In this document: positions 31,628 to 46,729 of the stretch, one piece after another | Layout: every line of letters starts with the position of its first letter | Numbering within the stretch: the stretch's first letter is position 1 | DNA from: Cognatundibacterium crateris | Lineage (GTDB): Bacteria; Pseudomonadota; Gammaproteobacteria; Burkholderiales; Burkholderiaceae_D | Assembly (NCBI RefSeq): GCF_010078235.1 | Contig: NZ_JAABOS010000002.1 | Location: 186,001-250,000 of the forward strand | Direction: 5' to 3' | DNA length: 64,000 nucleotides | Program-made: the position numbers and the translations under genes | Notes under the pieces: generated by a model | Told to the model about the DNA's origin: nothing | What the model saw: the letters and a program-made list of their open reading frames with translations, nothing else | Database searches by the model: none

Positions 31628-31908
31628 GGGTTACTCCGGTTAATATCATGGATAGTCGCGCACAGTGATGTTCAACACTGTAGCCAGCCACTGATGCAAG
31701 TCACTGCTGCAGGTTAATGCTGTAATTCAGCGCTGCGATTCACTACATCCTGAAAGACAGATGAGCAGATTTCATCTTGCACCAGCCATGACAGTCCGTC
31801 AACTATGAAAACTCAAGTCGGGTGCATGCCATGCCCCCTTACGCGCTGTCTGTGAGCGCCAGGCAAATTCTGATCGCGACCGTCGCTAAGTCGGTTTACA
31901 CTACGCCT

Positions 31909-33051
31909 ATGTCCTCAACACCAAGCCAGATGATGATCGCGATGCCGCCCGGACGCATGCACTACCTGTGGTTTGCCGGCCTGGCGCTGGCGGGCCATCT
32001 GCTGCTGTGGCAATGGAGTACACCAGCCATCCGGCCAGCGCCCGCGGTCAGCCCTAAGCTGGCACCAGTGACGGTGCAACTGGCCGTCAAACCAAAGGTC
32101 ACAGCAAGGGCTACGCCGCCTGCACTGCCACGTGCACGTGAAAGTACACGGCCCCAAATCGCAGCGCGCAGTCAGGCCATGCCTGCACCGCCTGCGGCCA
32201 GTGTCAGCTGGAGCGACAATAACGGCGCCGTAAGTACGGCATCGGAAGCAAGTGCGCAAACCGGTTCGCTCCATCAACTCAGTGAGCTCAGCAGCAGTAT
32301 CACGCTCGATCCAGTCACGGTGCTGACACCACTGACCGAATCCGATCAAAGTCTGAGCTTACATGGCTATGCGGCAATAGCGCCGGACAACGCTGTGTTA
32401 AAGACTAAGCTGGTCAGCGAGAGCCCGGGCAAAAATCCAGTTTATGGCTTGGGTGAAATTACGTTTCAGATTCAGGATGGCCGTTATCAGGTGAAAGTCC
32501 AGGCAGGTCTGGATTTGTTGTTAACCACACTAAATCTGTATCAAATGCAAAGCGAGGGGAACTGGACGGAATTCGGCTTGCAGCCGCAGACCATGATCGA
32601 GAAACGGAGTAAGCGCAGCGAGACCGCCACCCACTTTCAGCACGACAGCCAGACCATCAATTTTTCGTCCAGCAATCGCAGCACCGCATTACAGGCTGGT
32701 GCGCAAGACCGTGCCAGCATTTTCCTGCAACTGAGTGCACTCGGTAAGGGCTCACCCCAGTTATTCCAGGCGGGACAGCAATTGCGGGTACAGGTGGCTG
32801 AAGACCGCGAGGCGCAGGAATTCCTGTTTCAGGTACAGGCCAAAGAAATCCTGAAAACCCGCATGGGCGAGCTGGAGACCTGGCATATCATCCGTCCGCC
32901 GCGTGCCGGAAAATATAACTCCACACTGGAAATCTGGCTGGCTCCCGGCAGGCAATGGTATCCGGTGCAAATCCGTAATACTCAATCGAATGGTACGGTC
33001 ACCAGCCAATATGTGACCGCCATCCTCAACCCCGAGAAAGGAAGTTCCTGA
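31909..33051 (+). CDS. DUF3108 protein with N-terminal membrane anchor
   Basis: An envelope protein of about 380 aa. One N-terminal membrane helix (LWFAGLALAGHLLLW) is followed by a Pro/Ala/Val-rich periplasmic linker. The C-terminal DUF3108 domain of about 230 residues ends with LEIWLAPGRQWYPVQIR. Function is unknown; the domain is all-beta and lipocalin-like in predictions of the family. The start is uncertain: ATG 31909 or a GTG at 31822, neither with a good ribosome-binding site. The stop overlaps the next gene's ATG (TGATG), so it is coupled to a second DUF3108 gene. Confidence 0.78.
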   Translation: MSSTPSQMMIAMPPGRMHYLWFAGLALAGHLLLWQWSTPAIRPAPAVSPKLAPVTVQLAVKPKVTARATPPALPRARESTRPQIAARSQAMPAPPAASVSWSDNNGAVSTASEASAQTGSLHQLSELSSSITLDPVTVLTPLTESDQSLSLHGYAAIAPDNAVLKTKLVSESPGKNPVYGLGEITFQIQDGRYQVKVQAGLDLLLTTLNLYQMQSEGNWTEFGLQPQTMIEKRSKRSETATHFQHDSQTINFSSSNRSTALQAGAQDRASIFLQLSALGKGSPQLFQAGQQLRVQVAEDREAQEFLFQVQAKEILKTRMGELETWHIIRPPRAGKYNSTLEIWLAPGRQWYPVQIRNTQSNGTVTSQYVTAILNPEKGSS

Positions 33052-33785
33052 TGTCTCACGCAATCATCCGCACTCTGCTTGGCGTATGTCTGTGGCAAAG
33101 TCTGGCGGCATTCGCAGCAGACAGTTTTCCGGCGACCCAGCTGGCGCCTGCGGCAGAACTGCAATACAGCATCAAAGCCAGACAAAGCGGCTTGAGTATA
33201 GGCGGCTCAGCGCTGGTACGCTGGCAGCAGCAAGATGGAAAATACAGCATACACAGCGAAACCCGCGCGGTACTGGTTGGGAAAATTCTAACCACCAGTA
33301 GTCAGGGCAGCATAGATGAACAGGGTCTGGCACCTGAGCTGTTCACAGAAAAACGTTTCGGCAAACCGGAAACCCAGACTATCTTTGACCGCCAGAATAA
33401 AAAAATCAAATTCAGCACTTCAGCCGAAACCTATCCGATTAAAGGTGGAGAACAGGATCGCAGCAGCGCGACCTGGCAATTGATCGCCCAGGCCAGGGCG
33501 GCCAGTACCCATTTCACCACCGGCAGCGAATGGAAAATGTTTGTTGCGGGCCGCCGGGATGCAGAAATCTGGACCTTCAAAGTAGTAGGTACAGAAAACG
33601 TACGCACCGCGCTCGGAGAATACCAGTGCATCCATATCAGCAAGGCGCCACCGCCTGACTCCAAAGATCAGCAACTCGATATCTGGCTTGCGCCTGGACT
33701 CAACTGGTATCCAGTGCGGCTGCGCTTTAATGACGCAGATGGTGACTTTGTCGATCAGGTGCTGGAAAGTGTCACCAAGCTCTGA
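33051..33785 (+). CDS. Secreted DUF3108 protein
   Basis: A DUF3108 protein of 244 aa with a cleavable signal peptide (LGVCLWQSLAAFAAD). The mature domain shows LQYSIKARQSGLSIGGSALV near its start and LDIWLAPGLNWYPVRLRF near its end. The latter is the same closing motif as in the upstream protein, so the two genes are probably an old duplication. Function is unknown. It is translationally coupled to the upstream gene. Confidence 0.85.
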   Translation: MSHAIIRTLLGVCLWQSLAAFAADSFPATQLAPAAELQYSIKARQSGLSIGGSALVRWQQQDGKYSIHSETRAVLVGKILTTSSQGSIDEQGLAPELFTEKRFGKPETQTIFDRQNKKIKFSTSAETYPIKGGEQDRSSATWQLIAQARAASTHFTTGSEWKMFVAGRRDAEIWTFKVVGTENVRTALGEYQCIHISKAPPPDSKDQQLDIWLAPGLNWYPVRLRFNDADGDFVDQVLESVTKL

Positions 33786-33879: not shown

Positions 33880-33928
33880 AAAAAAGACGGAATAATTTCC
33901 ACACGGAAAATATTCCGTCTTTTTTTTA
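33880..33928 (+). terminator. Intrinsic terminator after DUF3108 genes
   Basis: A long stem (AAAGACGGAATA pairing with TATTCCGTCTTT), topped by a second small hairpin TTTCC-ACAC-GGAAA, then a run of eight T. It lies 95 bp after the DUF3108 stop and just before the promoter region of the carrier-protein cluster. Confidence 0.88.
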
Positions 33929-34007: not shown

Positions 34008-34514
34008 ATGTTAAGCGCCACGGATTTTCCACATTTTTCAGTTCGTCGACGCCGCTCTGCACAGCAACATGGAGCTGGCACCGTGGTGGTTGGCACCGAC
34101 CTGGTATGGATACCTGAAGTCGCCAACTCAGTTTCCCGCTTCGGTCAACGCTACCTGAATAAACTGTTCAGCGCCACTGAATTGCGTGACTGTGAGGGCA
34201 TACCAGAGCGCCGGTATGCCAGCCTGGCTGCACGCTTTGCAGCGAAAGAAGCCGTCATGAAAATTCTCGGCCTGCACGCTGATCAAGCGATCCCCTGGCG
34301 CGCAATCGAAGTGATACGGCCCCGTGGAACATCACCTTCGATACGCCTGCACGAGCCGGCTATCGCGCTGGCCAAACAGGCAGGCATAGATCACTGCGCA
34401 CTCAGTATGAGTCACGACCACGACTATGCAACAGCAACCGTCATCGCAACGAGATCTTTGAAAAAATCGGCTCGCAGTTGCAGCAAAGCTTCTCTCTCTT
34501 CCCCATTTCATTGA
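34008..34514 (+). CDS. Dedicated AcpS-type 4'-phosphopantetheinyl transferase
   Basis: A holo-ACP synthase-like enzyme of 168 aa that would attach phosphopantetheine from CoA to the carrier protein encoded next. The AcpS core shows VGTDLVWIPEV with the Mg-binding Asp, RFAAKEAVMKILG and the closing LSMSHDHDYATATVIA. It has about 25 extra basic residues at the N-terminus and a short extension at the C-terminus compared with E. coli AcpS (126 aa). Housekeeping acpS normally sits beside pdxJ, so this is probably a second, cluster-specific enzyme. It heads the cluster; TTGACA at 33935 is a possible -35 box. Confidence 0.82.
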   Translation: MLSATDFPHFSVRRRRSAQQHGAGTVVVGTDLVWIPEVANSVSRFGQRYLNKLFSATELRDCEGIPERRYASLAARFAAKEAVMKILGLHADQAIPWRAIEVIRPRGTSPSIRLHEPAIALAKQAGIDHCALSMSHDHDYATATVIATRSLKKSARSCSKASLSSPFH

Positions 34515-34530
34515 TAAAAAAGGTTAGCCC

Positions 34531-34770
34531 ATGAGTAAAGAAAAAATCCGCCAGGTTCTCAAGGAACAAGGCAAATTCAGCACTGACATCGACAGCCTGT
34601 CTGATGACGCAGATTTGTACGAAGCTGGCATGACTTCACATGCCAGCGTGAATGTGATGCTGGCTCTGGAAGATGCCTTCGATCTGGAGTTTCCGGACCG
34701 CATGCTGAAACGCAGCGTGTTTGAAAGCATCAATGCGATTCATGCCGCCATTGAAGAATTGAGCGCCTGA
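34531..34770 (+). CDS. Stand-alone carrier protein
   Basis: An acyl/aminoacyl carrier protein of 79 aa. The phosphopantetheine Ser is residue 36 in GMTSHASV, where the usual DSL is TSH. The following VNVMLALEDAFDLEFPD is normal for carrier proteins. It sits 16 bp after the transferase gene and 2 bp before the dehydrogenase-like gene. Neighbouring genes suggest it carries an amino acid rather than a fatty acid. Confidence 0.88.
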   Translation: MSKEKIRQVLKEQGKFSTDIDSLSDDADLYEAGMTSHASVNVMLALEDAFDLEFPDRMLKRSVFESINAIHAAIEELSA

Positions 34771-34772
34771 TC

Positions 34773-35936
34773 ATGCAAAGCTCTTCACTCATTCAAACAG
34801 CACGCCTGATAGCCAAAGACTTTGCTGCACCCCATGCGGATGCAGTGGATCGTGATGCACGTTTTCCACAAGCAGCGATAGACGCATTAAAGCAGGAAAA
34901 ATTGCTGAGCGCCTATATACCGGTTGAACTCGGTGGCGCAGGTGCCAGCCTGAGTGAATTAGTGGAGATCTGTGAAATTCTGGGGCGCCAGTGTGCCGCC
35001 ACCGCCATGATATTCGCGATGCATCAGATTCAGGTCATCACCCTGGTCGAACATGCTGCCGATCACCCCTGGTACCGACAATATCTGCAGGATCTGGTCA
35101 AACATCAGTATCTGATTGCTTCGGTGACTTCTGAAGTCGGCGTCGGTGGCGAAATGCGCCGCAGCCGTTGCGCGGTCGAGCTCAATGGCGATCAGTTCAG
35201 TCTGGTGAAAGATGCCACCACAATTTCCTATGGTGCCCAGGCCGATGATTTGCTGGTCACGGCACGTCGCCATGCTGACGCTGCCAACAGCGATCAGTCA
35301 CTGATCCTGGTACGCAAAGCAGATTACACGCTGGAGCAAAAAGGAAACTGGGATACCATGGGTATGCGTGGCACGTGCAGCCCGCCCTTCCTGATGACGG
35401 CCAGCGGCCATCGCGATCAGATTATGGAAGTTCCTTTCGGCGATATGTCTGCGCGTACCGTGGTGCCGGTATCGCATTTGCTGTGGGGCGGTTGCTGGCT
35501 GGGCTGCGCCACTGCGGCGGTCAACAAGGCACGCAGTTTTGTACGCGGACAAGCCAGATCCAATCCCGGTACTGTCCCGCCAACTGCACTGCGCCTGGCG
35601 GAATTAGTCAGCATGCTGCAAAGCCTGCGCACTTCAGTGCAGGCTTGCCTGACCGAATACGAACAATTATCCGCTGCCAGCGATGCCGCTACCGGCCCGC
35701 TTTCTTCGATTGCGTATTCCCTCAAAATGAATAATCTGAAAGTGGATGCGACCCAGGCCTTGCCACAAATCGTGATCAAAGCCCTGTCCATCTGCGGCAT
35801 TCTGGCCTATAAAAATGACAGCAAATTCAGCATGAGCCGTCATCTGCGTGACGGCCTGTCTGCCGCACTGATGGTGGGTAATGACCGGATACTGGCGACT
35901 AATGCCAACCTGTTGCTGGTTCTCAAAGACGACTGA
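34773..35936 (+). CDS. Acyl-CoA-dehydrogenase-like flavoprotein acting on carrier protein
   Basis: A 387-aa protein with the acyl-CoA dehydrogenase fold. Conserved parts include ELGGAGASLSELVEICEILG, IASVTSEVGVGGEM and a C-terminal CGILAYKNDSKFSMSRHLRD. At the place where ordinary enzymes have the catalytic Glu in YEGT, this protein reads MVGNDRI, so the classical base is absent or moved. Related flavoproteins oxidise aminoacyl groups on carrier proteins, for example prolyl-S-PCP to pyrrolyl. Its place between a carrier protein and an amino acid:carrier ligase makes a carrier-bound substrate likely. Confidence 0.83.
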   Translation: MQSSSLIQTARLIAKDFAAPHADAVDRDARFPQAAIDALKQEKLLSAYIPVELGGAGASLSELVEICEILGRQCAATAMIFAMHQIQVITLVEHAADHPWYRQYLQDLVKHQYLIASVTSEVGVGGEMRRSRCAVELNGDQFSLVKDATTISYGAQADDLLVTARRHADAANSDQSLILVRKADYTLEQKGNWDTMGMRGTCSPPFLMTASGHRDQIMEVPFGDMSARTVVPVSHLLWGGCWLGCATAAVNKARSFVRGQARSNPGTVPPTALRLAELVSMLQSLRTSVQACLTEYEQLSAASDAATGPLSSIAYSLKMNNLKVDATQALPQIVIKALSICGILAYKNDSKFSMSRHLRDGLSAALMVGNDRILATNANLLLVLKDD

Positions 35937-35949
35937 TAAAGGAAGCGCC

Positions 35950-36861
35950 ATGTCTATCGATTTTTCTCCTGAAATACTGAGCAATGACCTGATCGCAGCC
36001 GGTCATATTATTCCTGTCGGCGTACAAGGCATATTTGGCCGCGGACCGGTGTTTGAAGAAGTACTGCGCCGCTTTGATGATTATGTCTCGCGCGTCGCGG
36101 CAGCCGATCAGGCCACCCGCATGTCTTTCCCGCCCTGCCTGGACCGCAAAGTGCTGGAACGCAGCGAATATCTGGACTCTTTCCCGCAATTGGCAGGCAC
36201 CATATTCAGCTTTACCGGCAATGAAGCCCAGCACAAGGAACTGATAGAAAACGTGCATGAAGGGCGTCCCTGGACCCATTTGCAAACCATGACTGGCGTC
36301 TGTCTGACTCCAGCTGCCTGCTATCCGGTATATCCGAGTTTCACCGGTACCCTGCCCGAAGGTGGTCGTCTGGTGGATATGCAAAACTGGGTATTCCGCA
36401 ATGAACCTTCGCCAGAGCCAACCCGTATGCAATCCTTCCGTGTGCGCGAGTTTGTGCGTGTAGGTACGCCGGACATGGTAGTAGCATGGCGCGATCTGTG
36501 GTTGCAACGTGGCCTCGATATCCTGCAATCGCTGGGACTGCCTGCGCACTCTGAAGTCGCTTCTGATCCTTTCTTTGGCCGTGGTGGCCGCATGCTGGCC
36601 GCGAATCAGCGTGAACAGCAATTGAAATTTGAAGTCGTGATTCCTGTCATTTCACAAGAGAAACCGACAGCGGTATGCTCCTTCAATTACCATCAGGATC
36701 ACTTCGGCAAATTGTTTGACATTCAGACGGCCGATGGTGAAGTGGCGCATACCGCCTGCCTGGGTTTTGGGCTGGAACGGATCGTGATGGCATTATTCAA
36801 AACCCATGGCATGGATACCGCTGGCTGGCCTGCAGCGACACGCGATATTTTAGGCTTATGA
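35950..36861 (+). CDS. Amino acid:[carrier protein] ligase (seryl-tRNA-synthetase-like)
   Basis: A 303-aa class II aminoacyl-tRNA-synthetase-like enzyme without a tRNA-binding arm. Such proteins activate an amino acid with ATP and load it on the phosphopantetheine of a carrier protein (described in Bradyrhizobium and Agrobacterium). Motif 2 is VFRNEPSPEPTRMQSFRVREF and motif 3 is GFGLERIVMAL. The likely zinc ligands Cys124, Glu167 and Cys270 match the Cys-Glu-Cys triad of the characterised glycine enzyme in spacing. ATG 35950 has GGAAG upstream. The amino acid used cannot be told from the sequence; Gly or Ala is typical. The stop overlaps the DUF1839 start. Confidence 0.88.
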   Translation: MSIDFSPEILSNDLIAAGHIIPVGVQGIFGRGPVFEEVLRRFDDYVSRVAAADQATRMSFPPCLDRKVLERSEYLDSFPQLAGTIFSFTGNEAQHKELIENVHEGRPWTHLQTMTGVCLTPAACYPVYPSFTGTLPEGGRLVDMQNWVFRNEPSPEPTRMQSFRVREFVRVGTPDMVVAWRDLWLQRGLDILQSLGLPAHSEVASDPFFGRGGRMLAANQREQQLKFEVVIPVISQEKPTAVCSFNYHQDHFGKLFDIQTADGEVAHTACLGFGLERIVMALFKTHGMDTAGWPAATRDILGL

Positions 36862-37853
36862 CTCTGCACGCCCTGCCCCCTATCGTACTGAGCGAGTACC
36901 GCCAGCACAGTCTGCACGGTCCGGATCGCGACTGGGCGGAAACCAATTGCTATATCGATGTCTGGGTTGAGGTTTTGCATGCGCAAGGCCTCAATCCGCT
37001 GGCCTGTTTGTCCATGGTATTTGCGAATGATTTCGACGGTGACCAGTGGACATTTTACAAGCCGCCGCATGAAGATTTGTTTGCGCTATACGGCATCGAT
37101 GTGCAAGAACTCAATGTCTGGCGCGGCTTGCTGCCCAACGCAAGTGAGCAGCTCAGGCGCGGGCGGCTGGTGCTGACCGAAACCGATTCGTTTTACCTGC
37201 CGGACACGGCCGGCACTGACTATCGCAGCAATCACGTCAAAACCACGATCGCAATACAGGAACTCGACCTGGAGCAGCAACGCATGGGCTATTTCCACAA
37301 TAGCAGCTACCATGAATTGCAGGGAGAGGATTTCATTGAGACCTTCCGCATAGGCAAGCCCTATGATCCGACGTTCATGCCTTTGTTTGCTGAATTCGTG
37401 CGCCTGGACCGGGTACAAATCAAAACCGAGCCTGAGCTTGCCGCGATCGCATTGCAGCTGCTGCGCAAACATCTGGCGCGCCGTCCACACGGCAACCCGG
37501 TTTCTGCATTTCTGCCGGTTTTCGTACAGGATGTGGAAGCACTTAAAGAACAAGGGATGGCGGCTTATCACGCGTATGCATTTGCCACCCTGCGCCAGCT
37601 GGGTGCCGGCTTCAGCCTCGGCAGCCAACATCTGCACTGGCTGCAAGCCAGTACCGGTGCCGATTTCAGTACGGCAGCACATGAGTTTCAGGCGATATCC
37701 GAAAACTGCAAAACCCTGCTGCTGAAAACTGCCAGGGCCGTCATGGGCAAGCGCGCAGTTGATTTAGCGCCACTGGTCAGCCAGATGGCAGAACACTGGG
37801 ATCAGGGTATGCGTGCCTTACAACATAGTCTGGATCACTTAGCTTCCACATGA
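36858..37853 (+). CDS. DUF1839 family protein
   Basis: A 331-aa DUF1839 protein. The family is known mainly from neighbourhoods with amino acid:[carrier protein] ligases. Visible segments are NCYIDVWVEVLH near residue 30, FEGDQWTF-like FDGDQWTFYKPPHEDL and TDYRSNHVKTTI. No catalytic motif is established. A role in moving the aminoacyl group from the carrier protein is an inference from position. It overlaps both neighbours by ATGA. Confidence 0.85.
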   Translation: MTLHALPPIVLSEYRQHSLHGPDRDWAETNCYIDVWVEVLHAQGLNPLACLSMVFANDFDGDQWTFYKPPHEDLFALYGIDVQELNVWRGLLPNASEQLRRGRLVLTETDSFYLPDTAGTDYRSNHVKTTIAIQELDLEQQRMGYFHNSSYHELQGEDFIETFRIGKPYDPTFMPLFAEFVRLDRVQIKTEPELAAIALQLLRKHLARRPHGNPVSAFLPVFVQDVEALKEQGMAAYHAYAFATLRQLGAGFSLGSQHLHWLQASTGADFSTAAHEFQAISENCKTLLLKTARAVMGKRAVDLAPLVSQMAEHWDQGMRALQHSLDHLAST

Positions 37854-40417
37854 ACGGGCATTACACTTCAGCCTCCGCTGTGCCTAGCCTGCAAGCGCTG
37901 CAGGCAGCGTGGCAAATGGCAATCGTCCATGCCGGGCGCTATGCACTGGCCAGCGAAGCGGAACAGGAATTTCTGAATGGCTATCCGGTACAGCCGCCTT
38001 GTACTGTCATTTCTGCACTGGCACAGGCGGGGGAATTTCAGTTTCAGGATTTGCAGCTGGATGATAAGGATGTCTGGTTCCGCTGTCAGCTGGATTTGTC
38101 GCCTGAGGCGCGGTTCCTGCATTTCGATGGTTTAGCCACGCATACAGAAATTTTCTGGAATGACAGGCTGCTGCAGCGTACCGATAATATGTTCCTGCGC
38201 TATACGCTGAATTTGCAGGAACTGGATGTACATGGTCAGGGTACGCTGGCCATACGCTGCTGCGCACTAAATACCGAACTGGCAAAAAAACGCCCGCGAC
38301 CACGCTGGAAAACCCGCCTGGTCGAGCATCAGCAATTGCGCTGGTTACGCACCAGTCTGCTGGGCCGCATGCCGGGCTGGTCGCCACCGGTGCCACCGGT
38401 CGGTCCCTACCGTGATATCTGGATAGAATATGCGGCACCTGTAAGCCTGCGTGAAGTACAACTGCAGACGCGACTGTCGGCTCAGGATGGCGTGGTCAGT
38501 TTTTCTGCTACCTGTGTCAGCGAAGAACCGCTGCTGCAGGTCAGTCTGCATGTGGGCAGCTATACCCAGCAACTGGATTTACACCAGACGAGCGACTGCG
38601 GCACTGCGATACAAGGCGAATTACTGTTCCCCTCACCGCAGTTATGGTGGCCACATACCCATGGCAGACCGCAGTTGTACACCGCCTGCCTGGCACTGAC
38701 CACGGCGCGCGGGCAAAGCCTGATTGCACTCGGTGAGCTGGGTTTCCGCCACATTCATGTCGATACCCGCGATGGCAATTTCTCACTGCATGTGAATGAT
38801 GTAGCGGTTTTCTGTCGCGGCGCCTGCTGGACACCAGCCGATGTGCTGTCTTTGAATGCCAGCGAAGAAAAGCAGCGTCAGATGCTGACACTGGCACGTG
38901 ACGCCGGTATGAATATGCTGCGCGTAGTCGGTACCATGGTGTATGAAAACGCGCACTTTTACCGGCTGTGCGATGAACTCGGCATCCTGGTCTGGCAAGA
39001 CTTCATGTTTGCCAATATGGATTACCCGGTGGCCGACCTCGCTTTCGGTTTGCAAGTCTGTCAGGAAGCAAAATCTTTTTTAAGCCGCACCCAAACTTCT
39101 GCCTGTATCGCCGTCTTATGCGGCAACAGTGAAATCGAACAACAAGCCGCCATGCTGGGTCAGCCGCGTGAAAACTGGAGCAATCCATTTTTTAGCGAGA
39201 GCTTGCCGCAAATTTGTCAGGAGCTGCGGCCTGACTGTATTTACTGGCCATCCAGCCCCAGCGGCGGCGTGATGCCGTTTCAGGTCGACAGCGGCGTGGC
39301 GCATTATTTTGGCGTCGGCGCCTATTTGCGCCCGCTCGACGATGCGCGTCGTAGCGGTGTACGCTTCACTTCCGAATGCCTGGGTTTTTCCAATATGCCG
39401 GAAGACAGTCTGCTCGACAGTATGTCTGGACAGGGCGACTTCCCGGGTCTGCATCCGTCCTGGAAAAAAGCCGTGCCACGTGACCATGGCACAGGCTGGG
39501 ATTTTGAAGATGTGCGCGATCACTATCTGCAGCAATTATATGGATCAGACCCGGCACGTCTGCGCTATGCCGAACGTGAACGCTACATCGCACTGTCACG
39601 CCTGACTAGCGGTGAAGTCATGGCACAGGCCTTACATGAATGGCGCCGTCACGGTTCCGCTTGTCATGGCGCGCTGATCTGGTTCTGGCGCGATCTGTGG
39701 GCCGGTGCTGGCTGGGGACTGGTCGATGCATCGGGTCAGCCTAAAGCAGCCTATTACTTTGTCAAACGTGCGATGGCAGCGCAACTGGTGTTCTTCACTG
39801 ATGAAGGCCTGAACGGTCTGGCGATCCACGTCAGAAATGATGCGGCCAGCAGCCTGCATGGTAGCCTGAGTCTGCGGTTGACACGTCATGCCGACACCAA
39901 CATCGCGGACATCAGCGTGCCGGTTCAGGTGGCGCCGCACAGCAGCATCATGTTACGTGCCGATGCCTTGCTGCCGCATTTCATGGATACCAGCTATGCC
40001 TACCGTTTCGGCCCGCCCGGTCATCATCTGGCCAGCGTCCATCTGACACGGGATGGTGAAAGCACGGCCTGCAGCCATGATCATCACTTTCCGGCGGCGC
40101 GCTTAGCCGGCATGGAAAGCGATGCCGGACTGGATGCCAGCTGGCAGCCGGAAGGCAATGGCATGCTGCGCCTGCATTTGAGCTGCCGCCGCTTCCTGCA
40201 TGGTGTACAGCTACAAGTCAGCGGTGCCGAGGCACTGGATAATTACTTCCATTTAAGCCCGGGCCTTGTGTACACGGTCAGACTGCGTCTGCCTGGTTCT
40301 GCTGAGCAGGTCAAAGTGCAAGTCAACGCCATCAATCTGCTGTTTGCTGTGCGCATACGTCCGCCGGCTGAAGCATTCAATTCATCTCATCATAGCTACC
40401 CCGGGGACCAGGTTTGA
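37850..40417 (+). CDS. GH2 family beta-mannosidase-like protein
   Basis: A glycoside hydrolase family 2 protein of 855 aa. It has an N-terminal jelly-roll sugar-binding region, an Ig-like domain and a TIM barrel (about 310-640) with VFCRGACWTPADV and LRVVGTMVYENAHFYRLCDE. The acid/base Glu is in CGNSE (about residue 427), where GH2 enzymes normally have Asn before Glu; here it is Ser. The nucleophile Glu is in FTSECLGF (about residue 508). No signal peptide is seen, so it is cytoplasmic. It may act as a transglycosylase or glycan-modifying enzyme rather than a scavenging mannosidase. It overlaps both neighbours by 4 bp. Confidence 0.8.
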   Translation: MNGHYTSASAVPSLQALQAAWQMAIVHAGRYALASEAEQEFLNGYPVQPPCTVISALAQAGEFQFQDLQLDDKDVWFRCQLDLSPEARFLHFDGLATHTEIFWNDRLLQRTDNMFLRYTLNLQELDVHGQGTLAIRCCALNTELAKKRPRPRWKTRLVEHQQLRWLRTSLLGRMPGWSPPVPPVGPYRDIWIEYAAPVSLREVQLQTRLSAQDGVVSFSATCVSEEPLLQVSLHVGSYTQQLDLHQTSDCGTAIQGELLFPSPQLWWPHTHGRPQLYTACLALTTARGQSLIALGELGFRHIHVDTRDGNFSLHVNDVAVFCRGACWTPADVLSLNASEEKQRQMLTLARDAGMNMLRVVGTMVYENAHFYRLCDELGILVWQDFMFANMDYPVADLAFGLQVCQEAKSFLSRTQTSACIAVLCGNSEIEQQAAMLGQPRENWSNPFFSESLPQICQELRPDCIYWPSSPSGGVMPFQVDSGVAHYFGVGAYLRPLDDARRSGVRFTSECLGFSNMPEDSLLDSMSGQGDFPGLHPSWKKAVPRDHGTGWDFEDVRDHYLQQLYGSDPARLRYAERERYIALSRLTSGEVMAQALHEWRRHGSACHGALIWFWRDLWAGAGWGLVDASGQPKAAYYFVKRAMAAQLVFFTDEGLNGLAIHVRNDAASSLHGSLSLRLTRHADTNIADISVPVQVAPHSSIMLRADALLPHFMDTSYAYRFGPPGHHLASVHLTRDGESTACSHDHHFPAARLAGMESDAGLDASWQPEGNGMLRLHLSCRRFLHGVQLQVSGAEALDNYFHLSPGLVYTVRLRLPGSAEQVKVQVNAINLLFAVRIRPPAEAFNSSHHSYPGDQV

Positions 40418-42237
40418 ATTCGCAACAATTTCCGAGCCAGCAGATTCTGTTCAGGCCTGAGGCATTCTGGTTCGGTGAACCGGAAGCACCGCTGATGGGC
40501 TGGTACCATCCCGCCCATCTGCGTGAAGCAGCTGGCAGTCGCCAATGCGGCGTGGTGCTATGCGCACCGTTTGGGCATGAATACATGGTGGCTTACCGTT
40601 CATATAAACATCTGGCAGAACGGCTGGCACGCGCGGGCTTCGATGTACTGTTTTTCGATTACCGCAATACTGGCGATGCAGGCGATCAGGCGGGTAACCG
40701 GATAGAACAGTGGCAGGCCGATATCCGTAGCGCCTGTCAGACGCTGCGCGAGATAGCGCAGGTGAATCAGATTGCTTTGTTCGGCTTACGACTGGGCGCC
40801 TTGCTGGCCGCCAGCGTGCTGCAGGAATGTGATGCGAGTGCGCTCATCGGACTGGCACCGGTGATCTCAGGCCGCGCCTACAGCCGTGAATTGCGGGTGT
40901 TACGTACCATGGGCGCTACCACGCAAGTCGAAGAAACTGACAGCGCACGCCAGGTGGGTGAGGATGAGCTGACTGGCTATATATTCGATGCAGAGATGCG
41001 CACCAGCCTCGCAAAGCTCGATATGCTGAACATGGCAGCGCCAGCCTGTCCGGTGCTGCTGATCGCCCGTGATGATGTGAGCGGTCAGGAAGGCAAGCTG
41101 AATACACAATGGCAGGAAGCAGGCACCAATATCACGCTCAGCAGTACACCCGGTTATGCTGCGATGATGCCTGGCGATGCGTATGAGAGCGTGGTACCCG
41201 ATGAAATCTGGAGCGAAATTCTGGCCTGGCTCAGTCCCGCATTTCCCATCAGCGACAAGGAAATACCTGTCAGCAGCAGCCGGGAAACCAGCAAAATCCT
41301 GCACGTGGGGACGACACAGATTCAGGAAAAACTGGTGCAGTTCGATGGTTACACTGGTGTACTGAGTCAACCCGTGCATCCCATCGTTCCGCATTTACCT
41401 GCAGTCATACTGTGTAATATAGGTGCCAATCACCGGGTCGGCACCCACAGGCTGTACGTGCGTTTTGCCCGCGTCCTGGCGCAGGCTGGCTTTCCGGTAT
41501 TACGTTTTGATAAAGCCGGGATCGGTTATAGCAAGGCTACGCCGCAAGACACAGAAAACGATGTCTATGCCGATGGCGGCGTCAACGATATCCGGAATGC
41601 CATGTATTTCATGGAAAACAGCGTGTATTGTGAAGGTTTTGTCGTCGCAGGTTTATGCTCTGGTGCTTACTTCGCCTACCTGAGTGCGCTTGAGGATCAG
41701 CGGGTGCGCGGTGTAGTGCTGATGAATCAGCTGGTGTTCGAATGGCATGCCGGTGACACCATTACTGCGCGCAAACAGGAATCGATTAAATCCACCCATT
41801 TCTATGTCAAGGCAGTGCGTAATCTGCACACCTGGAAACGCCTGTTCAAGGGCGATATCCGGCTACGCCAGATCATACGCAAGCTCAGTGAACGGGTAGG
41901 AAAACGTCTGCGCACCATTTCTCAGGCGCTGATAGGAAAACTGATCAAGGACCACCATTTCTTAGGCAAGGTGGCCCGCCAGTTCCGTCAGCTGGATGCG
42001 CGCGGCGTAGAAGTCATGCTGATCATGGATGCAGGTGACGCCAGCGTCGATCTGATGACGGAGAATCTGGGGCGGCATGGCGTGTTGCTGGGTGACAGTG
42101 AAAGGATACGCCTGACGATATTCAAAGGCGCTGACCACACGTTCACCCCGCTATGGACGCAGCAGTATGTGAGCGATCTGCTGGTCAGCCATTTGCAAGT
42201 GCGTTTTCTGCCTGCCTCCGCAACGAAGGCAGAATAA
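40414..42237 (+). CDS. Tandem alpha/beta hydrolase (exosortase-locus type)
   Basis: A fusion of two alpha/beta hydrolase domains (607 aa). Domain 1 (about 1-285) has GLRLGALLA at the nucleophile elbow, with no Ser in the usual position. Domain 2 (about 300-600) has GLCSGAYFA, with Cys there, and a final GADHTFTPLW with the likely catalytic His. The two halves resemble hydrolases 2 and 1 that accompany exosortase A loci, usually as separate genes. They may release or transfer the carrier-bound group. The start is TTG overlapping the GH2 stop (TTGA). The 3' end overlaps the convergent flippase gene by 53 bp. Confidence 0.8.
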   Translation: MNSQQFPSQQILFRPEAFWFGEPEAPLMGWYHPAHLREAAGSRQCGVVLCAPFGHEYMVAYRSYKHLAERLARAGFDVLFFDYRNTGDAGDQAGNRIEQWQADIRSACQTLREIAQVNQIALFGLRLGALLAASVLQECDASALIGLAPVISGRAYSRELRVLRTMGATTQVEETDSARQVGEDELTGYIFDAEMRTSLAKLDMLNMAAPACPVLLIARDDVSGQEGKLNTQWQEAGTNITLSSTPGYAAMMPGDAYESVVPDEIWSEILAWLSPAFPISDKEIPVSSSRETSKILHVGTTQIQEKLVQFDGYTGVLSQPVHPIVPHLPAVILCNIGANHRVGTHRLYVRFARVLAQAGFPVLRFDKAGIGYSKATPQDTENDVYADGGVNDIRNAMYFMENSVYCEGFVVAGLCSGAYFAYLSALEDQRVRGVVLMNQLVFEWHAGDTITARKQESIKSTHFYVKAVRNLHTWKRLFKGDIRLRQIIRKLSERVGKRLRTISQALIGKLIKDHHFLGKVARQFRQLDARGVEVMLIMDAGDASVDLMTENLGRHGVLLGDSERIRLTIFKGADHTFTPLWTQQYVSDLLVSHLQVRFLPASATKAE

Positions 42238-43486
42238 AGCGCCAGACCACCACTGTCTCAAACACCTCGACGCAAATTAAGGCCACAATTGCACCCGCGC
42301 TGGCCCAAAAAGGCATGGTCAGCGTCGTGATCGCGATCACCAGCACCAGCGTCACCATGCCCAGCTTAAACATAGAGCGGAATGCGCCGCCACTCATGAG
42401 CCACGAAGTGCCGATAGTGCGTACCGCATTTACTGCAAAGTAAGCGCCCCATAACATGATCAGCAAATCCAGTCCGGCGTATTTATCTTTATCAATGAAA
42501 TGTGTGTGCAGCCAGGGCAAGGCCAGCAAGAGTACAGTGACAAAACTGAATACCACCACCTCTATACCGATCACTGACATCAAAGTCAGCTTACGCAAGC
42601 CTGCCCAGTTATGCTCCTGCATCAGACGCCCGGCCTCTGGCCGCGCTACCCGGGTCCAGGCTGCTACTGCCAGCGGTATCGGCATCAGCAACAGACGCGA
42701 GGCATTCAGATCTGCAATCGCTGCCGCCCCCAGCATCGCGCCTGACAAATAAACATAACTGTAATTGGACAGCCATCCCACCAGCGCACCGGCGACCGCC
42801 CAGCGCCCATGACTGCGTATGGTTTCCTGATGCGCCTGCAGGGTTTCCTGGTCATGGGCTTCGATCGCTACCTGGGTCGCTGTCAACTGCATCAGTGCGC
42901 CGCGTCCGTATAAGGCGGCCAGCAGGGAAGCAGCGGATAGCACCAGAAACAAGGGCAGCAGCGCCAGGCATTCAAAGTGCAACAAGCCGGTCAGACCGCT
43001 CAGCACCAGCAAGACATACACCACATCCTGACGCAGCACCTGGGGAATCGCAGACTGGATAAAGCCGACAGTGCGGCCGTATTCGCGCAAGCCATTGCCG
43101 ATCACATACAGGCCAAATGCTGCACCCAGCCCCCAGCTTTTTTCACCATAATGGGTGGCTGCAGGAATAAATTCGACTACCACAAAGGCGATCACCGCCA
43201 TCACCAAAGTCCAGATAATCTGGCGCATCCAGAAAGTACGCAGCAAATGGCGACGGGTATTTTCACTGACCACACTGGTCACTGTGGTCAACGGCCCGGC
43301 AATCCAGGAGTCCACCAGCAAACCTGCCAGCAAACCACCCGCATACAGCTGTCCATATAAGCCGTAGTCTTCTTTGGCTACTAAACGGATTAATAAAGCG
43401 CCAATCAGAAAATTCAGTGCGCTGAGCAGGCCCTGATCAATGACAGATAAGATGGAGGAAGAAAGAAATTTTTTATGAAAACTCAT
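42185..43486 (-). CDS. Polysaccharide/lipid-linked sugar flippase
   Basis: A 433-aa integral membrane protein with about 12 helices, of the Wzx/MATE-like polysaccharide export family. Typical segments are the N-terminal [21 protein letters not shown] and a helix-rich C-terminal half. It would move a lipid-linked glycan across the inner membrane. It lies convergent to the carrier-protein cluster and overlaps the hydrolase gene by 53 bp, which ties it to that locus by position. The exact substrate is unknown. Confidence 0.82.
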
Positions 43487-45301: not shown

Positions 45302-46729
45302 ATGAACGCACGCAGCCTGCAGGCAGGAATGGAATTCGACGGCTACCGGCTGGAAGAAAAACTCCATACCGGCGGCATGGCAGCGTTATGGCGTATCACC
45401 GATCTGCGCGCACGCCATCTTGGCAAACCCGGGCTGGAACAGGCTGTGCCACCGCTGATCATGAAGGTGCCGCTGCTGTATTCCAGCGATGATCCAACCG
45501 CAATTGTGGCCTTTGAAGTTGAGCAGATGATTATGCCCAAACTCAAAGGGCCGCATGTGCCGCGCTATTTCGGCTCAGGTGACTTTGATGCCCAGCCCTA
45601 TATCGTGATGGAGCAGATCGCCGGCGAATCGCTGCGCAGTCGCTTTGAACAGGCGCCGTTACCGATAGAAGAGGTGGTCAGCACTGGCATACGGATTGCC
45701 TATGCGCTGCATGATTTGCATCGCCAGCATGTGATCCATCTCGATATCAAGCCCAGCAACATCATGTTCCGCAACGGCCTGGCGGTGCTGATCGATTTTG
45801 GTTTATCGCGTCACGACCGCCTGCCTGACCTGCTCGATGAAGAATTCCGCCTGCCGATGGGAACCGGCCCGTATATCTCGCCCGAGCAAGTACTGGGGGT
45901 ACGCAATGAACCACGCAGTGACCTGTTTTCGCTAGGCGTACTGCTGTATCACCTGGCGACCGGCGAACGTCCTTATGGTCATCCGACCTCGGTGGCTGGA
46001 CTGAAGAAACGGCTATACCGCGATCCTATTCCGCCGCGTCAGCATCGCCCCGACCTGCCGGCCTGGCTGCAGGAAATCATCTTGCGCTGTCTGGAAGTCA
46101 ATCCTCAGGACCGCTTTGATACTGCCGCGCAGCTCGGTTTTCTGCTACAGAATCCCGATCAGCTGACCCTGACCGCGCGCGCTGGCAAGCAACAACAGGA
46201 TGGCTATCTGGCGATGTTTAAACGGCGCTTAAAGGTGGCCGGTTCGGAACCGCTGTTGCAGCACACGGTGTCGGAACAATTAGCCAAGGCCCCCATCATC
46301 GTGGCCGCACTCGATCTGACCCATGGCTCAGAGGCGCTGGCTGAACAGCTGCGCCAGATCACACGCCGCATGCTGCAAACCGAACCCGGTGCACGGCTAG
46401 CCTGTCTGACCATACGCAAGACCAGCCGCATAGGCATGGATGAAAGCCTGATCCAGCAAGGTCAGAATATCCATGTCAAACAACTGGTTGATCTAAAACA
46501 CTGGGCGCGGCCTTTGCAAATGGCAGCCGACAAAATCACTTTCCATGTGCTGGAAGCGCCCGATCCGGCGACTGCCATCATCGACTATGCGCATAACAAT
46601 GATGTCGACCACATCATCATAGGCTCACGCGGCAGTTCAGCTTTGCGCCGCTATCTGGGCAGCGTATCGGCCCAGGTAGTGGCAGAAGCGAATTGCACGG
46701 TCACGGTAGTGAAGAACAGCGATAAATAA
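45302..46729 (+). CDS. Ser/Thr kinase fused to a universal stress protein domain
   Basis: A 475-aa cytoplasmic protein. The kinase domain (about 15-285) has LHTGGMAALW, lysine in IMKVPLL, HLDIKPSN (HRD changed to HLD), LIDFGLS and ISPEQVLG, so it is probably active. After a linker the C-terminal about 150 residues form a Usp domain, with the ATP-binding signature GSRGSSALRRYLGSVSAQVV. No membrane segment is seen. The Usp part may sense ATP or energy state and steer the kinase. It is encoded 2 bp after a metallophosphoesterase that may reverse its action. Confidence 0.88.
   Translation: MNARSLQAGMEFDGYRLEEKLHTGGMAALWRITDLRARHLGKPGLEQAVPPLIMKVPLLYSSDDPTAIVAFEVEQMIMPKLKGPHVPRYFGSGDFDAQPYIVMEQIAGESLRSRFEQAPLPIEEVVSTGIRIAYALHDLHRQHVIHLDIKPSNIMFRNGLAVLIDFGLSRHDRLPDLLDEEFRLPMGTGPYISPEQVLGVRNEPRSDLFSLGVLLYHLATGERPYGHPTSVAGLKKRLYRDPIPPRQHRPDLPAWLQEIILRCLEVNPQDRFDTAAQLGFLLQNPDQLTLTARAGKQQQDGYLAMFKRRLKVAGSEPLLQHTVSEQLAKAPIIVAALDLTHGSEALAEQLRQITRRMLQTEPGARLACLTIRKTSRIGMDESLIQQGQNIHVKQLVDLKHWARPLQMAADKITFHVLEAPDPATAIIDYAHNNDVDHIIIGSRGSSALRRYLGSVSAQVVAEANCTVTVVKNSDK

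Follow-up and report, generated by a model that had tools for sequence, protein, structure and literature searches.

In the lincosamide synthetases (CcbC/CcbZ-CP/CcbD and LmbC/LmbN-CP/LmbD), an amino acid is activated separately, held on a carrier protein (CP) and coupled to an amino sugar by a Cys enzyme. In butirosin synthesis, the papain-like enzyme BtrH performs a carrier-dependent acyl transfer to an aminoglycoside, and in D-alanylation by the dlt system (DltA/DltC) an amino acid is activated, kept on a dedicated CP and then passed to a cell polymer. Other related systems are the exosortase-A-associated carrier module (TIGR03098, TIGR03100, TIGR03101) and the aminoacyl-tRNA-synthetase-like ligases of the Bll0957 family, for which a review table lists the amino acids Gly, Ala and Ser. 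In this study, we analysed a stretch of 64,000 nucleotides from Cognatundibacterium crateris (assembly GCF_010078235.1, contig NZ_JAABOS010000002.1, positions 186,001 to 250,000; hereafter the window), which carries seven adjacent genes that combine a CP and a ligase of this type with DUF1839, a glycoside hydrolase and further enzymes:

34008..34514, + strand: AcpS-type 4'-phosphopantetheinyl transferase (TIGR00516, 65.1 bits against a cut-off of 59.8; PF01648, 61.2 bits)
34531..34770, + strand: stand-alone CP with phosphopantetheine Ser36 (NF005480, 111.1 bits against a cut-off of 72)
34773..35936, + strand: acyl-CoA-dehydrogenase-fold flavoprotein (ACAD), both classical base positions devoid of Glu, H235 and W238 invariant
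35950..36861, + strand: aminoacyl-tRNA-synthetase-like amino acid:[carrier protein] ligase (LIG), matching NF005479 and Bll0957
36858..37853, + strand: DUF1839 (PF08893, 362.3 bits), putative cysteine aminoacyl transferase that may work like CcbD
37850..40417, + strand: GH2 beta-mannosidase-like enzyme with a Ser-Glu acid/base motif (PF22666; beta-mannosidase 5n6u, E 5.7e-69)
40414..42237, + strand: tandem alpha/beta-hydrolase (HYD) with a TTG start (TIGR03101-like and TIGR03100-like, both under cut-off)

This gene set recurs far beyond the window. Our survey comprised the best 80 of at least 590 DUF1839 stretches, at least 560 of them from relatives; 43 loci were 20 kb or longer, and the other 37 were shorter owing to contig ends. 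CP, ACAD, LIG and GH2 were all present in 38 of the 43 long loci, one or more of them being absent from L093, L103, L112, L132 and L141, and the CP lay close to the ligase in 41/43. Across the 80 loci, profiles matched CP in 68, ACAD in 74, LIG in 74, GH2 in 72, HYD in 52, AcpS in at least 43 and a neighbouring flippase-like gene in at least six, the last two counts being lower bounds because each of these profiles was built from a single sequence. By tblastn, 19 of 20 other DUF1839 loci were surrounded by CP, ACAD, LIG and GH2; the remaining locus (L030) holds the second DUF1839 copy of one genome. The cassette-gene profiles had no match in ten controls, each a 20-kb stretch of a different cassette-bearing genome. 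The gene set is a real unit, beyond chance, and 77 of the 80 loci are spread over eight phyla (Bacillota through one genome), as judged from genome labels, many of which belong to metagenome bins and may be wrong. The neighbourhood search suggested in the original prediction, a reading of the window by a model, thus revealed a conserved neighbourhood. On balance, we favour the view that these neighbours are a self-contained cassette of seven genes for carrier-protein aminoacyl transfer, which genomes gain or lose in one block and in which the steps proposed below would take place. Carrier-dependent aminoacyl-sugar synthesis, in a new variant, describes it best.

Gene order in the cassette is variable. 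The 37 long loci outside Undibacterium gave 20 gene strings, part of which differ merely by a missed or split gene, and the commonest layout (ten loci) consists of the divergent groups AcpS-CP-GH2-HYD and ACAD-LIG-DUF1839. Therefore, the linkage of the set is not simple operon inheritance. For the four large proteins, distances change in parallel, which indicates their joint descent or joint movement and nothing beyond. With the genome of the window included, DUF1839 was present in 9/41 genomes of the relatives search, 14/39 of the genus and 12/299 of the phylum. The LIG family scored above cut-off in 21 of the 299 phylum genomes, among them all 12 with DUF1839, and a further 16 matched it under cut-off. 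In five of these 16 (L081-L085), the ligase-like proteins are about 27-30% identical and occur without ACAD. In L103:9968-10942 (Ramlibacter), DUF1839 is accompanied by a divergent GH2, and the roughly 10 kb around it contain no CP, ACAD or LIG; L102 has a similar appearance, on a contig that is shorter. A long LIG frame without ACAD in L037, L039 and L040 was rejected as an artefact of shifted open frames in high-GC DNA, as tblastn showed a separate ACAD.

The first step would be the conversion of the CP to its holo form by AcpS, one of five proteins in the whole genome with a PF01648 match. LIG scored 424.2 bits against NF005479 (amino acid--[ACP] ligase; cut-off 357) and matched Bll0957 (3mey) with an E of 2.5e-78. 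Residues were counted after omission of split, short or stop-bearing rows (LIG 72/74 loci, CP 66/68, ACAD 71/74, DUF1839 80/80, GH2 67/72; HYD 46/52 plus the window, giving 47 rows). C124, E152 and C270 of LIG, which we take to be zinc ligands, are kept in 72/72 loci, and Ser36 of the CP in 66/66. By score, LIG belongs to the Bll0957 ligase family, and loading of the CP with an amino acid is well supported; judging from the family, LIG would activate a small amino acid as an AMP ester and pass it on to the CP. Loci with a ligase near-identical to Bll0957 differ in their surroundings: L074 (712.9 bits, E 4.6e-214) has CP, ACAD and LIG, with no DUF1839 or GH2 in 20 kb, and L072 and L073 share this layout. 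In L074:5343-10502, the CP is divergent from ACAD-LIG, and next to it come a PNP_UDP_1 phosphorylase and an IF-2B-family protein, presumably MtnA-like, neighbours hinting at a different acceptor. From the dlt system, whose DltC matches the CP weakly (28 vs 68 bits), the cassette differs by its ligase fold and by having no DltB/DltD-like membrane transfer gene.

The predicted model of ACAD (pLDDT 94.3) is a plain ACAD fold. At the columns that we take to be the classical Glu-base positions of MCAD and IVD, placed by PDB-match alignments plus gap-free extension, the 71 loci have V 41/I 29/gap 1 and S 63/A 7/T 1, respectively, and H235 and W238 are present in 71/71. Since the Glu base is lost, C-N oxidation or N-oxygenation of the CP-bound aminoacyl group may be likelier than a classical alpha,beta-dehydrogenation. 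Were glycine the loaded amino acid, alpha,beta-dehydrogenation would not be possible at all, and either of the other two reactions would suit the Glu loss. It is unlikely, in our estimate, that ACAD is instead a nitrososynthase-type N-oxygenase that acts on an amino sugar or an aminoacyl amine and not a thioester dehydrogenase. The absence of Glu from both base positions would fit such an enzyme, as would the sequence matches 3m9v and 4kcf (both presumably KijD3), nitrososynthase 3mxl and DnmZ 4zxv at ranks 3, 4, 6 and 12 of 40 PDB matches; ranks 1 and 2 are dehydrogenases, and the fold search gave no separation of dehydrogenase from monooxygenase. CaeB1 is reported to oxidise CP-bound cysteine, likely by means of a Glu base (PMC8149447).

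For DUF1839, sequence searches were of little use. Against the PDB, they gave chance matches with a best E of 1.2, and the window protein had no BtrH_N (PF14399) match up to E 10. Because the BtrH_N hmmscan signals were too weak, structures were compared. The predicted DUF1839 model (pLDDT 96) aligns over its whole length with CcbD, AziU3 and CtaG (Foldseek, VIA-align) in a common two-domain fold. C31, with which the first helix begins, T/S129 and H147 are conserved in 80/80 survey loci; this Cys-Thr/Ser-His order is also given in PMC10318531. DUF1839 is not placed in the CcbD family, though it may work like CcbD. In the reading that we favour, the acyl group would move from the CP to Cys31 and then to an acceptor amine (or hydroxyl), which most likely belongs to an amino sugar, as with CcbD in celesticetin synthesis. 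The cassette would share with the lincosamide synthetases the separate amino-acid activation, the CP and a Cys enzyme whose fold is alike over the whole length, but it has a tRNA-synthetase-like ligase in place of the adenylation domain, an extra ACAD and GH2, and another order of active-site residues in DUF1839. With BtrH, the likeness is that the DUF1839 profile weakly matches BtrH_N proteins over their full length, but DUF1839 falls short of that family; the activation and accessory genes of butirosin synthesis also differ from the cassette genes. One genome (G294) has two DUF1839 copies: the copy beside a full cassette (L041:9435-10418) is without the catalytic Cys and Thr, and the second (L030:91-1095) keeps the Cys and has no CP, ACAD, LIG or GH2 in the stretch read.

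GH2 most resembles the beta-mannosidases (5n6u). Its nucleophile E509 is found in 67/67 loci and its acid/base motif is Ser-Glu, with S427 in 65/67 and E428 in 64/67 (Asp in the other three). Compared with the GH2_13 beta-mannosidases, the nucleophile Glu is present, while the acid/base and loop 2 features (Asn-Glu, Trp) are absent: position 360, aligned with the 5n6u Trp, is never Trp in the 67 loci. GH2_14 is marked by a Ser-Glu motif and a Gly in loop 2; among the 67 loci, the SE doublet is common, and position 360 is Gly in 39/67 and Val in the window. In PMC12243196, Ser at this place is tied in glucosaminidases (SD) to amination at C2 and in GH2_14 (SE) to a pocket of larger size. Given these correlations and the Ser-Glu motif, the substrate is likely a C2-modified sugar, and a beta-galactosidase is conceivable as well. 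Potentially, GH2 frees or transfers the sugar part.

HYD resembles hydrolase 2 and hydrolase 1 of the exosortase-A-associated module in tandem, but it is under both cut-offs (150.4 vs 168.45 bits for TIGR03100 and 107.8 vs 202.75 bits for TIGR03101), and the ligase of that module is of the adenylation-domain type, not tRNA-synthetase-like. Domain 1 has GLRLG without Ser, with Arg126 at the nucleophile place in 44/47 rows, and domain 2 has G-x-C-S-G with Cys415 in 47/47. A parallel set of adenylation ligase, ACP, ACAD, hydrolase 2 (GLRLG) and hydrolase 1 (GLCAG), all under the TIGR03098, TIGR03100 and TIGR03101 cut-offs, is present in a Kangiellaceae bin (L161:390-5332), directly upstream of CP-ACAD-LIG-DUF1839-GH2. 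Its adjoining position suggests that HYD serves carrier-bound acyl groups; with the nucleophile position of domain 2 taken by Cys, HYD might edit or move an acyl group.

Three enzymatic claims had been made for this locus beforehand, namely that an amino acid is loaded on the CP, oxidised and transferred onto a sugar. The first is upheld by the ligase score and the conserved ligase and CP residues. For the second, the ACAD fold is there, but V/I and S/A/T occupy the Glu base positions. The third stands as a plausible proposal in view of the DUF1839 fold and the GH2 motif. Several observations weigh against a CcbD-like transfer to a modified sugar. In nine loci, LIG is found with neither DUF1839 nor GH2 (ACAD 9/9, CP 7/9 in the stretches read). 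The Cys-His-Glu/Asp triad order of CcbD was not found in DUF1839, in which T/S129 stands at the His position (aligned by eye) and H147 further on. The profile comparison of DUF1839 with BtrH was modest (E 0.0027, probability 11%), and BtrH_N was matched by 5/61 DUF1839 members with a best E of 0.01, while the plainly unrelated IL11 family (2 members) reaches 0.0035 in that scan. AziU3 has the same fold and makes an aziridine, not an amide, so that the predicted fold alone does not fix the reaction. GH2_14 also has the SE motif, and its members reported in PMC12243196 are beta-galactosidases.

Some of these points would fit another outcome, in which a dehydro- or otherwise oxidised amino acid leaves the CP, DUF1839 serves as hydrolase or thioesterase and the substrate of GH2 is an unrelated conjugate. 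The ACAD beside LIG in all nine loci without DUF1839 and the parallel set in L161 speak for it, and ACAD-type oxidation of a carrier-bound aminoacyl group is known from CaeB1/ColB1 (PMC8149447). We regard this outcome as improbable; the conserved company of DUF1839 and GH2 in the long loci would be accounted for more readily by a transfer onto a sugar.

Extended to all carriers of the cassette, a transfer of this kind might amount to a widespread undescribed pathway, a possibility that we put forward tentatively. A tRNA-synthetase-derived ligase would feed the CP in place of a nonribosomal adenylation domain, DUF1839 would join the oxidised aminoacyl group to an amino sugar by an amide bond, and a dedicated GH2 would handle the N-aminoacyl sugar, yielding a lincosamide- or mycothiol-like metabolite or a glycan decoration in at least eight phyla. 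No description of such a pathway was found in the open-access literature searched, in line with the original prediction, whose author knew of no described pathway with this set. If true, the tRNA-synthetase-like ligase family would gain its first testable role, with conserved partners and a specific acceptor step, and it would be tied to amino-sugar chemistry across bacteria of eight phyla. In addition, a reaction type would be assigned to DUF1839, which a single paper mentions in the open-access literature searched.

Small metabolite and decorated glycan are both compatible as products. The first proposal for this locus favoured the latter: the same chemistry with a cell-surface or exported glycan, such as an exopolysaccharide or lipopolysaccharide sugar, as the aminoacyl-decorated acceptor. 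Among 144 scanned neighbour genes (of 549 in 70 loci), glycosyltransferase-4-type domains were present in five, epimerases in three and polysaccharide deacetylases in three. For 144 scanned control genes (of 151 from elsewhere in ten cassette-bearing genomes), the 25 families listed, down to those with two members, include none of these three. One glycosyltransferase cluster lies near the cassette in 14/91 loci, and all six scanned of its 20 members match glycosyltransferase families. These counts hint at polysaccharide surroundings of the cassette, and the resemblance of HYD to exosortase-A-associated hydrolases and a glycan role guessed for DUF1839 in PMC10318531 are in line with them. However, the enrichment is weak, the control genes belong largely to other genomes and their list covers families of at least two members, and the majority of the 91 loci are without that glycosyltransferase. 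Moreover, a secretion signal was not obvious when judged by eye, and the flippase-like gene is unlinked to the cassette, as described below. A surface or exported glycan as acceptor is thus rather doubtful in our view.

The flippase-like gene had been given a part in the export of a lipid-linked glycan:

42185..43486, - strand: flippase-like membrane protein, neighbour outside the cassette (O-glycosylation flippase, 19.4 bits against a cut-off of 720)

It overlaps the end of HYD by 53 bp. The protein has no Pfam match, and its match to the O-glycosylation flippase is weak. Within the genus, the flippase was detected in 14/14 DUF1839-positive and 4/25 DUF1839-negative genomes (Fisher p 2e-7, kinship ignored). 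This association speaks for a flippase link, whereas the four exceptions, with the flippase at an empty site, speak against it. In these four DUF1839-free Undibacterium genomes (L183-L186), a DUF3108 gene, the flippase and queC are all in place, with about 1.1 kb between the DUF3108 gene and the flippase in L186. None of the seven cassette genes was found in the 20-kb stretches read, to which the search for CP, ACAD, AcpS and HYD was confined; genome-wide, there was no DUF1839, LIG or GH2, the GH2 search having been run without a positive control. As the empty sites keep the flippase, the cassette is a block gained or lost that ends before it. The single-sequence flippase profile also had no match in any of the 72 loci outside Undibacterium, of which 37 span 20 kb or more. 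Given its retention at the four empty sites and the lack of a match in these loci, we reject the flippase as a cassette member; it looks like a resident neighbour, and export through it was not borne out.

The genes named in the original prediction lie at the places and on the strands it gave, with one correction. The longest LIG frame begins at 35881, and the likelier start is the ATG at 35950, just after AAAGGAAG; in six relatives (L022, L023, L026-L029), the longest LIG frame is 303 amino acids, equal to the length from 35950. Spacings are 16 bp between AcpS and CP, 2 bp between CP and ACAD and 13 bp between ACAD and LIG, and 4-bp overlaps join LIG to DUF1839, DUF1839 to GH2 and GH2 to HYD. 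Promoter counts in the window were no higher than in shuffles, and Rfam and tRNA scans of it were empty. Upstream, two adjacent genes at 31822-33785 each have a DUF3108 domain, and in this genome, as in several relatives, the second marks where the cassette is bounded upstream. Between it and AcpS lies a probable terminator of the upstream genes:

33886..33927, + strand: hairpin followed by a T run, read by eye

A listed terminator core is at 33903-33918; the window has 11 such sites against a shuffle mean of 9.1, i.e., not above shuffles. On the far side of the flippase, a gene at 45302-46729 encodes a fusion of protein kinase and universal stress protein domains and is adjoined by a calcineurin-like phosphoesterase gene.

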